DNA of 64,000 bases, taken from positions 1 through 64,000 of the forward strand of contig JAFSRI010000038.1 of assembly GCA_017446155.1 (NCBI GenBank), in the 5' to 3' direction. Below are positions 9,946 through 18,700 of the stretch, piece after piece. Source of the stretch: Clostridia bacterium (GTDB lineage: Bacteria; Bacillota; Clostridia; Oscillospirales; CAG-272). The position numbers and the translations under genes are program-made. Positions within the stretch are counted from its first letter, which is position 1. Every line of letters starts with the position of its first letter. Under the pieces are notes generated by a model that saw nothing but the letters and a program-made list of their open reading frames with translations, was not told the origin of the DNA and ran no database searches.

Positions 9946-9981
9946 TTTACTTGGGAAAAACTAAGAGAAAGGTTGCCGAAT

Positions 9982-10782
9982 ATGATAAAAACCGTTGTGA
10001 TAGACAGTATGGAAGGCGTAATGCGGCTTATTTCCGATCAGGAATTTAACAGCGAGATAAACCGCGTTCGAAGCGCCTTTCTTTATCGAGGCTTGCCGGA
10101 TGTGAAATTTTCGCTTACGACAAGCATCCGAATGAACTGCAAGCATCTGTATAAAGAACTTGAACCTGCCGTGCTGAGAAACTTCACGAAATATGCGAGC
10201 ATCGAGGACCCAACGCTCAGCACTTCCGTCTGGAAGCAGATGATAGTAGGGCAGCATTACGGCTTGCCGACGCGGCTTATGGACTGGACGCGCTCGCCGC
10301 TTATCGCTTTGCACTTTGCACATTCGGAAACGAATTTTGATAAGCTCGGCAAACGCGATTGCGTTGTGTGGAGAATAGATATGCGCGACGTAAACAGAAA
10401 CTTGCCCGAAAAGTATTCAGAAGTGCTGAAAAGTCAAAATTCATATGTTTTTTCGGTGGAGCAGCTTACGTCTATCGCAGACAGTCTTGAAGAATATGAT
10501 AATGATATGGGAAATTCGGCACTTGCAAATATAGAGCCGCCGTCGCTCGACCAGCGTATAATACATCAATATTCGCTTTTCTCGGTAATCCCAAACGAAA
10601 TGACGGATATAGAGGGCTTTCTCGACGTTCATACGGAAAAAACAGTTAAATATATAATCAAAAAAGAAGTAAGATGGGACGTGCGAGATATGCTCGACCA
10701 GCTCAATATCAGCGAGCGAACGATATATCCCGGACTCGACGGACTTTCGAGAACGCTTGCAAGGCATTATTTCGTAAAGTGA
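9982..10782 (+). CDS. FRG-domain protein
   Basis: A 266-aa protein with the FRG domain, named after its F-R-G motif. Here it reads FLYRGLPD near residue 33, and a second block GQHYGLPTRLMDWT lies near residue 93, followed by PLIALHFA. The C-terminal 100 residues look like a helical extension with no family I recognise. FRG proteins are often found as accessory or toxin-like genes and their biochemistry is poorly defined. ATG 9982 is preferred to TTG 9973 because GAAAGG lies 9 bases upstream. Only 9 bases separate it from the sugar permease gene, so it appears to be the first gene of that operon, an unusual setting. Confidence 0.8.
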   Translation: MIKTVVIDSMEGVMRLISDQEFNSEINRVRSAFLYRGLPDVKFSLTTSIRMNCKHLYKELEPAVLRNFTKYASIEDPTLSTSVWKQMIVGQHYGLPTRLMDWTRSPLIALHFAHSETNFDKLGKRDCVVWRIDMRDVNRNLPEKYSEVLKSQNSYVFSVEQLTSIADSLEEYDNDMGNSALANIEPPSLDQRIIHQYSLFSVIPNEMTDIEGFLDVHTEKTVKYIIKKEVRWDVRDMLDQLNISERTIYPGLDGLSRTLARHYFVK

Positions 10783-15033: not shown

Positions 15034-15339
15034 TTAAAATCTTTTTTCTTCGGGGCAGAGCTCTTTATATAACTCTTTTAGTTTTATGTATCTTTCCGTT
15101 TCTTTGGTTGCGTCTTCATCATCTACGTTCAGTTTCAGAGCCTTTATTGCTTCGCTGAGTTGCCCCATGCGATAGCTGTCTTCACACTCGAATGTTTTTA
15201 GATTTGTCATTGCTTTTAAAAAATTATCAAACAAAATCACTTGTTTCTCATTTAACGTTTCCTTAAATTCCTTGTATGCTTGATCATAATTTTTGGTAAG
15301 CGTCATGAATAACTTATAAGCAGAAAACTCTTTTCCCAT
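15034..15339 (-). CDS. Small helical protein downstream of the small-RNA array
   Basis: I do not recognise this 101-aa protein. It is charged and mostly helical by eye, with no signal peptide or membrane segment and a Lys/Glu-rich C-terminus. The segment FECEDSYRMGQLSEAIKAL resembles a motif of small phage- or plasmid-like Clostridia proteins of unknown function (weak memory, not a firm match). GGGAGG precedes the ATG. Only 21 bases separate its start from the terminator of RNA unit 1 on the same strand, and no promoter fits in that gap, so it is probably expressed by read-through from the array. That arrangement recalls RNA-antitoxin/toxin loci or attenuators. Confidence 0.65.
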   Translation of the reverse strand: MGKEFSAYKLFMTLTKNYDQAYKEFKETLNEKQVILFDNFLKAMTNLKTFECEDSYRMGQLSEAIKALKLNVDDEDATKETERYIKLKELYKELCPEEKRF

Positions 15340-15360
15340 TCTTTTATCCTCCCGGTTCCT

Positions 15361-15528
15361 AAATAAAAAGTGCGCCCCGTAAGGAACGCACCAAAAAAGT
15401 GTATTCCTCCGGTTCTGTTACCACGCAGAAACCATACTTCTAAACCGAGAAAAAGGCAAGAAAGAGAAAACACTTTTTTACAAAGTAAGTTTTCTCGGAT
15501 TCAGAAGCAATATTCATTTCTGCGTGGT
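15361..15528 (-). ncRNA. Tandem structured small RNA, unit 1
   Basis: The minus strand holds TTGACA (15563-15558), 17 bp, TAAGAT (15540-15535), then a structured RNA of about 168 nt. Stem I pairs TACCACGCAGAAA (plus strand 15419-15431) with 15517-15529, 13 bp without mismatch. Stem II pairs 15437-15450 with 15493-15507, 14 bp with one bulge. The apical region holds AAAAAAGTGTTTTCTC (15479-15464). After the stems come GAGGAATACACTTTTTT (15409-15393) and a 9-bp terminator hairpin GTGCG...CGCAC (15391-15370) with a T run. Stem I begins almost exactly at the predicted first transcribed base. No reading frame is conserved between units, so it is taken as noncoding. Confidence 0.75.
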
Positions 15529-15534
15529 ATTTTC

Positions 15535-15563
15535 ATCTTACCACGATTGCTGAATTTTGTCAA
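15535..15563 (-). promoter_or_regulatory. Promoter of small RNA unit 1
   Basis: TTGACA-17-TAAGAT on the minus strand. Its spacer (AAATTCAGCAATCGTGG) is identical in unit 2 and differs by one base in unit 3. Confidence 0.8.
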
Positions 15564-15571
15564 TAAAAAGA

Positions 15572-15737
15572 AAAATAAAAAGTGCGCCCCACAAGGGAAC
15601 GCACCAAAAAAGTGTATTCCTCCGTGAGTTGTTGTCATACAAACTTAATTTCATCAGCAGAATGAAAATAAAGAGGAAACACCTTTTTTCAAAGGATAGT
15701 TTCTTCCTGCTGACGAAAGATATTTAGTTTGTATGAC
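15572..15737 (-). ncRNA. Tandem structured small RNA, unit 2
   Basis: Same plan as unit 1 at a 210-bp offset, with different stems. Stem I pairs TGTCATACAAACT (15633-15645) with 15726-15738, 13 bp, perfect. Stem II pairs TTTCATCAGCAG (15649-15660) with 15707-15718, 12 bp with one G-U. The apical loop is AAAAAAGGTGTTTCCTC (15689-15673), the 3' motif GAGGAATACACTTTTTT is unchanged (15622-15606), and the terminator hairpin (15604-15582) has one extra G-C pair. The loop carries a one-base change relative to unit 1. Arms share no sequence with units 1 or 3. Confidence 0.75.
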
Positions 15738-15743
15738 ACAAAC

Positions 15744-15772
15744 ATCTTACCACGATTGCTGAATTTTGTCAA
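15744..15772 (-). promoter_or_regulatory. Promoter of small RNA unit 2
   Basis: TTGACA (15772-15767), 17 bp, TAAGAT (15749-15744) on the minus strand. Confidence 0.8.
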
Positions 15773-15782
15773 TAAAAAGACA

Positions 15783-15937
15783 AATAAAAAGTGCGCCCCG
15801 TAAGGAACGCACCAAAAAAGTGTATTCCTCACTGCGCCACACAGTTAACATACCAAACAAGGAATGAAAAATGAGAAAACACTTTTTTACAATAAAAAAG
15901 TATTTCCTTGCTTGGCATAACTATTTAAATGTGTGGC
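15783..15937 (-). ncRNA. Tandem structured small RNA, unit 3
   Basis: Third unit. Stem I pairs GCCACACA (15836-15843) with TGTGTGGC (15930-15937). Stem II pairs TACCAAACAAGGAA (15851-15864) with 15904-15917, 14 bp including two G-U pairs. The apical loop AAAAAAGTGTTTTCTC (15888-15873), 3' motif GAGGAATACACTTTTTT (15830-15814) and terminator hairpin (15812-15791) match unit 1. An 8-bp apical hairpin ACTTTTTT/AAAAAAGT is also possible, which would compete with pairing of the loop to the 3' motif. Confidence 0.75.
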
Positions 15938-15943
15938 ACAAAT

Positions 15944-15972
15944 ATCTTACCACAATTGCTGAATTTTGTCAA
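15944..15972 (-). promoter_or_regulatory. Promoter of small RNA unit 3
   Basis: TTGACA (15972-15967), 17 bp, TAAGAT (15949-15944) on the minus strand. One spacer base differs from the other two copies. Confidence 0.8.
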
Positions 15973-15980
15973 TAAAAAGA

Positions 15981-16144
15981 CAAAAAAACATATTACTCCG
16001 TGCGTTGTCGCACAAAACCGCAAACCCAAAAGCCGCGAGAAATGCAAAAACGCCTTTTTGACATAAGGTGATTTTCTTACGTATGCATGAAAAATCATCT
16101 TTTGCAACGTAAATATAATAGGGTATAAAAACTCAAATGGTCAA
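15981..16144 (-). ncRNA. Possible diverged fourth small RNA unit
   Basis: On the minus strand TTGACC (16144-16139), 18 bp, TATTAT (16120-16115) could be its promoter. It ends with hairpin GTGCG-ACAA-CGCAC (16013-16000), then GGAGTAATATG and seven T, recalling the GGAGGAATACAC-T6 motif of the other units but with the order of hairpin and motif changed. The stems are shorter and less clear (TGATTTT / AAAATCA near 16070-16100). It may be a degraded or an ancestral unit. Confidence 0.4.
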
Positions 16145-16279: not shown

Positions 16280-18700
16280 ATGAATAAAAAAGGAATTTTC
16301 CGTAAAATATCCGCGGTTTTCATAGTTTCGCTGATGCTTTTGATGACAAGCATAACGGCGTTTGCCGCAGATATAAGCGACTCGAATTATAATTATCTCA
16401 GCCCGATACCGTTGCTTATCATTAAAATTTCATATGATGCGAACGGAAACGGCAGAAATGACTTTGACGCGCAAAACCCGAGCAAACTCACCGATAAAAA
16501 CTCGGAATTTTACGGTGAGCAGTGGAGTTATTCGGACGATACCGTGTGGTATAAAAACTTTTTTGATACCGGCAACTCCGCGTCGATGATAAACTTTTAT
16601 AAGAAAATGACAAACGACAAATTCTGGTATTATCCGGCAGAGGAAACCTCAGCTGACGTCCAGAAGAACGGCAAGGAAAATGACGGAATTGTCAACGTTA
16701 TCGTAAAGCATAAACATCCGGAAGCGAAAACGAACAGCGATTCCAGCGAGGATGCGGCGTCCCGTCAAGCGGCGCTGAGAGAAGCCGACAAATACGTTAA
16801 TTTTGCGTCTTTCGATAAAAACAAGGACGGGAAAATTTCATATAACGAGCTTGCGATCGCATTTGTTTGCGCGGGATATGAATCGTCCGGTACGTCGAAA
16901 ACGTCGAAACTCGCGTTCGGCGTTCACGCGCATTATACAAACGGCTCCGGCATCAACGCCGACGGCGTATCCGTCGGCAATTCCGGTTTTGTTCGTCTTG
17001 GCGAATATGTTACAAGCGACACACCGGCAACGATCGGCGTTTTGGCGCACGAATTGGGGCATTTCATCGGTGCCGCCGACCTTTATGACACATCCTCCGG
17101 CGGAAGTTATTCAAAATACGTCGGGAATATGTCGCTTATGGCGAGCGGCTCTTGGGGCGGAAGCAAGGGTGCCGGCCCGTCATACATGGATCCGTATAAC
17201 GCGATAGTTTGCGGTATTGCAAGATCATCGCTTATTGTTGACGACGGAGAATATACGCTTTATTCACGCCAGAGCAAAAAAGGGGACTATAATATTCTGA
17301 AAATAACAACGCAAAACCCCAACGAATATTATTTGATTGAAAATAGATATTCCGACTCGGATGTTTTCGATAAAAGTCTTACAGATGCACAAAAAGGTAT
17401 CGTCATCTGGCATGTCGATGAATCTATTGCCGCCAGCTTCGGCAATAAACTCAATTCCTCGGGCGGAATGCACGACCCGAGCGTAGCCGTTATAGGAACA
17501 AGTTCTCTCTCGACCACAGCGTTTAAATACATAGATAATTCTATAAACGGGCAAAGTTATACGTTTGTTCCGTATTCTACAAAATATAAATTCCCGATAA
17601 GCGGCGGTCCGTTTACTCTTTTGACAGACGAACAGGCAAAAGCGTTCACAATTCAGGTTGACGTTCTTTCATACGCGGGGAATGAGATGAAGATAAAAGT
17701 CAACAGTGTAATAACCATTCCTCCCGCAATTTCGGTTGTTGCGTCTGAAAAAGAAGTTGATTCGCTTACGTTTACATGCAGGTTAACAGATCTCAACGGT
17801 GCGGTGGCGGGAAAGGCGAAGCTCATTCTTTCCGAAGATCCTAACCCGACGGAAGAAAACGGAACGACGATCGACTTTGAATTTGACACCGAAACATATG
17901 AGTTTGTATATAAGTTCGACGAGCTTAAAGCGAATACAAAATATTTCTGCAAACTTATAGTTGACAGCGACCACGGCAGCACCGAAAAAACATTGATAGG
18001 CTATACAAAGGCAGTTCAGAAACCTCGCACAGAATATTATGTAATTTACTGTTACAAGGGCTTGCTTGAAGTTGAACGCTCATATGAGGTAAGGGTAAAG
18101 CCGGGCGCCACGTTTGATTATTCGTTCCCGATGCAGAAACGCGGATACGATTTCTGTGGATGGTATCTCGATTCCGACTATACCGAAAGATACGATATGG
18201 CATACACTCAGGACACCTGCACGGACTTCTCAATCTATGCAAAGTGGGTTAAATCGGGGAACACCGCCACATTAAAACTTGTCGGCGCTACGTCAAAATA
18301 TAAGATGTTTGCGGCTGAGGTCGGCGATACGTTCGTTGAACCTGTTGCAAACGAAAGAGAAGGATATTCGTTTGGCGGCTGGTATGCCGACGAGGAGCTT
18401 ACGGTTGAATTTGACTTTGGCGAACAGATAAAAGAGGCGGAAGAGGTAACGATCTACGCAAAGTGGATAAAAGACTCATCTCAGCCGGAGAAAACGACAG
18501 AAACGACGACAACAGTTGAAACGACCGAAACCACAACGACCGATAAGCCACAGGAAACATCGGCAACGGAAACCACCGATGCAACACAACAGCCCGGAGA
18601 AAAAACCGGATGCGGCGCTGTAATCGGCGTTGGTGCAGTTGTTTCCGCCGTAACGGTTGTTCTCGCTTGTGCAATCGTGACAAGAAAAAAAGAGGACTGA
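16280..18700 (+). CDS. Surface-anchored M6-family metalloprotease
   Basis: An 806-aa exported protease of the immune-inhibitor-A (M6) type. The signal peptide ends near residue 30. The catalytic domain contains LAHELGHFIGAADLYD near residue 258, the zinc site of the family. Just before it, near residue 175, FDKNKDGKISYNEL is an EF-hand-like calcium loop. After the catalytic part comes an Fn3-like segment (about 475-575), then two InlB-type B-repeats (GWYLDSDY and GWYADEEL, each closing with YAKW), a Thr/Glu-rich linker and a C-terminal membrane helix ending RKKED. There is no LPxTG motif, so anchoring is by the helix. It has its own promoter and terminator. It probably degrades extracellular protein; the substrate is unknown. 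Confidence 0.9.
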   Translation: MNKKGIFRKISAVFIVSLMLLMTSITAFAADISDSNYNYLSPIPLLIIKISYDANGNGRNDFDAQNPSKLTDKNSEFYGEQWSYSDDTVWYKNFFDTGNSASMINFYKKMTNDKFWYYPAEETSADVQKNGKENDGIVNVIVKHKHPEAKTNSDSSEDAASRQAALREADKYVNFASFDKNKDGKISYNELAIAFVCAGYESSGTSKTSKLAFGVHAHYTNGSGINADGVSVGNSGFVRLGEYVTSDTPATIGVLAHELGHFIGAADLYDTSSGGSYSKYVGNMSLMASGSWGGSKGAGPSYMDPYNAIVCGIARSSLIVDDGEYTLYSRQSKKGDYNILKITTQNPNEYYLIENRYSDSDVFDKSLTDAQKGIVIWHVDESIAASFGNKLNSSGGMHDPSVAVIGTSSLSTTAFKYIDNSINGQSYTFVPYSTKYKFPISGGPFTLLTDEQAKAFTIQVDVLSYAGNEMKIKVNSVITIPPAISVVASEKEVDSLTFTCRLTDLNGAVAGKAKLILSEDPNPTEENGTTIDFEFDTETYEFVYKFDELKANTKYFCKLIVDSDHGSTEKTLIGYTKAVQKPRTEYYVIYCYKGLLEVERSYEVRVKPGATFDYSFPMQKRGYDFCGWYLDSDYTERYDMAYTQDTCTDFSIYAKWVKSGNTATLKLVGATSKYKMFAAEVGDTFVEPVANEREGYSFGGWYADEELTVEFDFGEQIKEAEEVTIYAKWIKDSSQPEKTTETTTTVETTETTTTDKPQETSATETTDATQQPGEKTGCGAVIGVGAVVSAVTVVLACAIVTRKKED

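Follow-up and report, generated by a model that had tools for sequence, protein, structure and literature searches.

A new family of probable transcription attenuators, sometimes in tandem, mostly upstream of diverse accessory genes in Clostridia

Introduction

The LhrC sRNAs of Listeria are encoded by tandem, sRNA-sized genes that have their own promoters and terminators and share a conserved CU-rich segment. In the leader of pT181, an antiterminator segment held in a hairpin stands in competition with the intrinsic terminator placed before the gene (PMC3753616), and riboswitches with terminator expression platforms, tandem ones included, have been reviewed (PMC9481103). The "mobile attenuators" reported in 2010 comprise related terminator elements that lie before unrelated genes (Naville and Gautheret, PMC2965389).

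The window analyzed here is a stretch of 64,000 nucleotides from a Clostridia bacterium, whose minus strand carries three units at 15361-15980, each made up of a promoter, a long hairpin and an intrinsic terminator. Like the pT181/pIP501 leaders, these units set an antiterminator segment in a leader hairpin against an intrinsic terminator before a gene; however, there is no detected antisense promoter or rep gene, there is one more competing pairing, and many chromosomal and some phage copies exist. With riboswitches they share the 5' leader position, the mutually exclusive antiterminator and terminator and the occasional repetition before one ORF, but they differ in having a promoter for every unit and diverse targets, and in being absent from Rfam 15. 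Tandem sRNA-sized units with their own promoters and terminators and a CU-rich segment recall LhrC, whereas the family to which they belong consists mainly of gene leaders, and its conserved segments form an attenuation switch. Finally, mobile attenuators are terminators that derive from transposons and have spread recently, whereas the diverged module found here comprises promoter, leader and terminator as a whole and shows deep covariation. We conclude that this is very probably a new family of transcription attenuators, sometimes tandem and mostly found upstream of diverse accessory genes.

Results

A tandem array of promoter, hairpin and terminator units

The three units follow each other at distances of 200-213 bp, and all three promoters are of the form TTGACA-17-TAAGAT with an extended TG (Table 1). 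This bears out an earlier note, made from the letters of the window, which had placed three minus-strand units at ~210-bp steps and assigned each its own promoter and terminator. Promoter-like sites number 12 as against 4.7 in shuffles, and terminator-like sites 7 as against 1.2; a T run follows the terminator of each unit. The hairpins are as structured as had been claimed, with unit folds of -61 to -66 kcal/mol (z -7.7 to -8.9) and none of 200 shuffles as stable. Between units, segment B is 82-100% identical, motif C 84-95% and the terminator 90-100%. The stems do diverge between units, but to call them unrelated was too strong: the P1 arms are 38-73% and the P2 arms 33-67% identical. The diverged fourth unit is detectable, but only as a weak match to the covariance model R1, which was built from the window units and their relatives and comprises P1, part of P2 and the A:B and D:E helices described below.

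The earlier note had overlooked that a GGGAGGA Shine-Dalgarno site and then the ATG of a 101-aa ORF lie directly 3' of unit 3. Judging from this layout, the ORF would be governed by unit 3. Divergent from the array, the window encodes a secreted metallopeptidase of the M6 type (806 aa; 16280-18700, +) that carries Listeria-Bacteroides repeats and an EF-hand-like motif, and at 9973-10782 (+) a FRG-domain protein (PF08867, E 5e-21) adjoins a sugar ABC transporter operon.

Table 1. Coordinates of the array features in the window
Feature	Position	Strand	Evidence
Unit 1, probable attenuator leader RNA, most upstream, no ORF behind	15786..15941	-	R1 121.7 bits, genome E 2.7e-24; fold -63.5 kcal/mol, z -8.9
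Unit 2, probable attenuator leader RNA, middle, no ORF behind	15577..15741	-	R1 133.9 bits, genome E 4.1e-27; fold z -7.7
Unit 3, probable attenuator leader RNA, 101-aa ORF behind	15365..15532	-	R1 127.1 bits, genome E 1.6e-25; fold z -8.0
Diverged fourth unit, probably degenerate	15974..16112	-	R1 32.7 bits, genome E about 1e-3; no recognizable terminator of its own
Unit 1 promoter, TTGACA-17-TAAGAT, TG before -10	15944..15972	-	10/12 matches
Unit 2 promoter	15744..15772	-	promoter scan
Unit 3 promoter	15535..15563	-	promoter scan
Unit 1 P1 5' arm	15925..15940	-	predicted fold
Unit 1 P1 3' arm, partner 15925-15940	15833..15848	-	predicted fold
Unit 2 P1 5' arm	15719..15743	-	inverted repeat I1
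Unit 2 P1 3' arm, partner 15719-15743	15628..15652	-	inverted repeat I1
Unit 3 P1 5' arm	15517..15529	-	inverted repeat I9
Unit 3 P1 3' arm, partner 15517-15529	15419..15431	-	inverted repeat I9
Unit 1 segment A, 5' arm of apical hairpin	15893..15908	-	inverted repeat I3; A:B own-partner z -10.6
Unit 1 segment B, AAAAAAGUGUUUUCUC, partner A or C	15873..15888	-	inverted repeat; own-partner tests
Unit 2 segment B	15673..15689	-	own-partner tests, duplex energies
Unit 3 segment B	15464..15479	-	inverted repeat I5; own-partner tests, duplex energies
Unit 1 segment C, GUGAGGAAUACACUUUUUU, partner B or terminator arm D	15814..15832	-	fold; co-evolution; duplex energies
Unit 2 segment C	15606..15628	-	fold; co-evolution; duplex energies
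Unit 3 segment C	15393..15410	-	fold; co-evolution; duplex energies
Unit 1 terminator D-loop-E	15790..15813	-	terminator scan; T run after
Unit 2 terminator D-loop-E	15581..15605	-	terminator scan; T run after
Unit 3 terminator D-loop-E	15369..15392	-	terminator scan; T run to 15361
Shine-Dalgarno GGGAGGA of 101-aa ORF, just beyond last terminator	15347..15353	-	sequence, ORF calling
101-aa ORF behind unit 3, weakly DUF6809-like	15034..15339	-	Pfam E 0.002, below cut-off

Five segments and four competing pairings

Two regions are complementary to segment C (GAGGAAUACACUUUUUU), a 3' motif: the apical arm B (AAAAAAGUGUUUUCUC) and arm D, on the 5' side of the terminator. This, too, had escaped notice before. 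Five segments, A to E, thus give four neighboring and mutually exclusive pairings: A:B, the apical hairpin; B:C; C:D, the antiterminator; and D:E, the terminator. Their mean duplex energies are -12.3, -12.9, -11.8 and -16.4 kcal/mol, respectively, and in the pseudoknot-free minimum-energy folds of all three window units C:D is formed and D:E is not. Since D:E is usually more stable than C:D at equilibrium, C:D would need to win kinetically, and the calculated energy balance would be enough for a kinetic switch.

We compared the duplex energies of own and cross-element partners in 52 elements with less than 70% identity. All four neighboring pairings show a strong preference for the own partner (A:B z -10.6, B:C -9.4, C:D -8.9, D:E -12.5), as against non-neighboring control pairs of the same relatedness (A:C z -0.1, B:D -0.6, C:E -1.0, A:D -1.8); the full element set gives the same result as the divergent 52. 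Pairing of B with terminator arm E plus the U tract, which is possible by composition, was rejected with a weak own-partner preference (z -1.9), as was a pairing of the bulge with C, which shows no clear preference (z -1.7).

The alignment columns tell the same story at the level of base pairs. For P1, P2, A:B and D:E, 91.6% of the cells are paired as against 42-58% when the columns are slid, a figure which leans on an alignment fitted to this part of the structure, and 34 of the 41 pairs have changed on both sides. The model behind the alignment contained neither B:C nor C:D, so their figures do not lean on it: B:C has 91.3% of cells paired (59-75% slid) and 27 double-change cells, and C:D 92.3% (47-65% slid) and 64 double-change cells. 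The claim of selection on the structure thus holds. While the surrounding stems change, an unpaired AUA beside P1 is at least 95% conserved (sequence-weighted); P1 keeps ACAC/GUGU, and a CA is conserved in the linker. As in a transcription attenuator, an intrinsic terminator lies between promoter and gene, and an antiterminator that excludes it, C:D, is kept by compensatory change.

Distribution in Clostridia

A DNA search of 97 relatives found dispersed copies. With the R1 model, matches were obtained in 183 of the 295 genomes of a family sample (E up to 0.1), and, at E up to 1e-4, in 58 of 197 genomes of an order sample and 71 of 291 of a class sample; these samples, like that of the phylum, overlap, so that the counts are not additive, the E-values are rough owing to a shortened calibration, and the genomes are MAG assemblies. 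In the phylum sample of 299 genomes the source genome alone matched, which also shows the model to be specific. Where hosts are named, they are uncultured Oscillospiraceae and Clostridia, the majority of them from ruminant guts. The source genome itself (a 1.7 Mb MAG, 81.5% complete) has, beside the array, three more clear copies (one on contig C28 and a tandem pair on C19) and two borderline ones.

Searched against the 4227 families of Rfam 15 at gathering thresholds, the window and 14 element-bearing loci yielded tRNAs only, in line with the absence from Rfam suspected earlier; the T-box covariance model was unmatched in the same set, and a relaxed search of the array gave implausible, chance-level matches (plant microRNAs, a Phe leader). 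The open literature on attenuation and structured-RNA discovery yielded no matching element. Other short genomic matches to segment B (L005, L006, L015, L017, L018) are isolated and devoid of the leader architecture, and the model did not bear out the exact-pattern hits to records of Legionella, Bryobacterales, Nitrospirae and Acetatifactor.

Leader position and the genes behind the element

A Shine-Dalgarno site and a same-strand ORF start are found within 130 nt behind 131 of the 159 distinct copies with enough sequence for this count, as against 29 of 153 in the control, the divergent direction upstream; the ORF mostly starts 15-50 nt past the terminator. A promoter of the sigma-A type precedes 150 of 165 homologues; its spacer is 17 nt long in 132, and a TG stands ahead of the -10 in 118. 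From this arrangement, the element would usually be an mRNA leader. The earlier description of an array of small RNAs is accordingly right for tandem units with their own promoters, but incomplete, as the majority of homologues stand as 5' leaders before protein genes and have the co-evolving antiterminator and terminator of a switch. A conserved leader ORF is absent, since 127 of 165 elements have no Shine-Dalgarno site with a short ORF even at a permissive threshold; we therefore rejected a ribosome-mediated, leader-peptide attenuator.

The 131 proteins encoded downstream were grouped into 69 clusters, which include a Cys-rich family (29 members), SLOG-like proteins, lipoproteins, zinc ribbons, LRR proteins, DUF6809 and others. 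The commonest is the Cys-rich family of 57-70 aa, typified by IDxTGxELTPGEPxVCLGNGEQGFECCCDECDYFLLCFPEFD (e.g., L013:1567-1767, +, and 28 others), of which the member scanned had no Pfam match. The second largest cluster resembles the SLOG/YspA or DprA fold (L142:2413-2895, +; L009:1643-2101, +; L183:1525-1884, -). Neither a pathway nor a consistent defence theme runs through the downstream genes, the PADLOC matches being scattered. A type III toxin-antitoxin system was also rejected: no ToxN, CptN or TenpN is present among the first 25 of 78 downstream families, and the ORF behind unit 3 is weakly DUF6809-like.

Copies at the head of a phage operon

The element is present in all twelve IMG/VR contigs found by exact pattern. 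Where these are long enough, the leader is followed by a variable ORF (PASTA-like, lipoprotein or zinc ribbon), an exonuclease (phrog_3953) and a phrog_4291 protein of ~900 aa with a DFDGD motif; this operon, conserved in an IMG/VR phage lineage, is seen at L156:8808-13450, L165:8953-13227 and L251-L330, and its polymerase-like protein has a C-terminal HTH. By its family name, a weak RdRP match and the DFDGD motif, the phrog_4291 protein is a putative RNA polymerase resembling YonO of SPbeta, which is described as a single-chain RNA polymerase (PMC5467207). In a separate scan with the phrog_4291 protein, 31 closely related loci reached at least 71% identity and had enough sequence upstream, and 23 of them have the leader there; of 20 more distant loci, none does. 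The phage GenBank collection gave no blastn match, and a phrog_4291 search of 59 related genomes, run without a positive control, gave none either.

The phage leaders (L154-L165, L255-L319) have an extended -10 (TGTGCTATACT) and, in place of the TTGACA -35, a pyrimidine-rich stretch (CTTTTCTTTTT). This composition suggests that their promoter may be activator-dependent.

Tandem arrays and their possible origin

Other arrays of two to four units occur at L145, L166, L147, L116, L205, L172 and L185. In the source genome, the C19 pair (G000:C19 24514-25235; L205:1491-2236, -) consists of two tandem diverged leaders followed by a Shine-Dalgarno site and a 96-aa ORF, which is distantly similar to the 101-aa ORF of the window; both are weakly DUF6809-like. 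At L145:1469-2372 (-), four leaders stand at about 247-bp steps, and a shortened Cys-rich ORF remains between units, which suggests that arrays may arise by duplication of leader plus gene, with subsequent loss of the gene. The window array, with an ORF kept behind its last unit only, agrees with such a history, and its upstream ORF-less units look like duplicated leaders. A terminated transcript of ~160 nt would still be made from each, so that an additional sRNA role is possible.

Discussion

We observe pairings that co-evolve, a promoter and a placement in front of genes, and consider it very probable that each unit is a cis-acting transcription attenuator consisting of a strong promoter, a long P1-P2 hairpin presenting the conserved A:B, motif C and the terminator D:E. 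In the ON/OFF polarity that we infer, C would pair with D as it emerges and break the terminator, allowing read-through into the gene (ON); if C were instead captured by B, D would be left free and the terminator would form (OFF). The decision point would thus be the fate of B, which either stays with A or goes to C. With A shielding B, an input signal, whose existence we likewise infer, would turn the gene on by stabilizing A:B and off by removing A. The conserved unpaired core beside P1 is the probable site of its action, and candidates for its recognition are the near-invariant AUA, the P1 ACAC/GUGU core and the linker CA. In the window, the last unit would govern the 101-aa ORF, the two preceding copies would yield terminated RNAs of ~160 nt, and these extra copies may tune or titrate the signal. 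Counting against attenuation are the two window units that have no ORF, and the want of an obvious common theme among the downstream genes, which is unusual for metabolite riboswitches.

A narrower version of this reading, which we hold as a tentative but real possibility, is a class of small-molecule or ion riboswitches whose aptamer would be formed by P1 together with the linker CA and an asymmetric loop that contains the AUA. The conservation of the AUA amid changing stems and of the P1 core speaks for it, as does the switch architecture in company with neither an antisense promoter nor a common leader ORF; yet the invariant positions are few for a ligand pocket, and the targets are diverse accessory genes lacking a pathway theme.

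The units might instead be trans-acting, LhrC-like sRNAs of ~160 nt, whose CU-rich arm B and bulge would base-pair with target mRNAs rich in purines, while the ORF that follows unit 3 would be incidental. Each unit has its own promoter and terminator, two of the three stand before no ORF and would individually qualify as stand-alone sRNAs, other arrays exist (among them the first five listed above), and pairing in trans is possible, as every B in the window fits the C segments of the other units equally well (-13.2 to -15.8 kcal/mol). We nevertheless regard this as unlikely, because a Shine-Dalgarno site and an ORF lie behind 131 of 159 homologues, which sets the family apart from stand-alone LhrC-type RNAs, because the co-evolution of C:D is sensible only as terminator control, and because B:C is element-specific across the family.

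Control by an antisense RNA, of the pT181/pIP501 kind, is quite improbable: the logic of leader segment, antiterminator and terminator is alike (PMC3753616), and the CU-rich arm and bulge could serve as a landing site for an RNA, but the promoter scan found an antisense promoter (at least 10 of 12 matches) in 1 of 165 elements as against about 2.8 expected, and no replication gene lies behind the elements. Control by an sRNA encoded in trans would still be possible. An exapted transposable-element terminator of the mobile-attenuator type (PMC2965389) would account for multiple copies before unrelated genes, in phages too, but is very improbable given that there is no transposase among the downstream families listed, that the module retains its own promoter and a position just before the start codon, and that its copies have diverged deeply while compensatory changes kept the four competing helices, which points to function and not to recent copying.

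Beyond attenuation at single genes, a wider and somewhat doubtful proposal is that of a Clostridia-wide class answering to one common signal (a new ligand, a protein or a trans-RNA), in which a four-step strand-exchange chain would hold accessory and phage genes silent until they are required. The element would then have been adopted by phages with YonO-like polymerases at the head of that operon, and orphan tandem copies would work in trans, either through pairing or through titration of the signal.

The family, present in most sampled genomes of the host family and in about a quarter of the sampled Clostridia species, often in several copies per genome, is missing from Rfam. Its four co-evolving pairings lend themselves to precise mutations for testing. 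It offers a handle on the control of many uncharacterized accessory genes in the dominant Clostridia of the gut, which are for the most part uncultured, and on a phage operon that encodes an unusual, putative RNA polymerase of its own.
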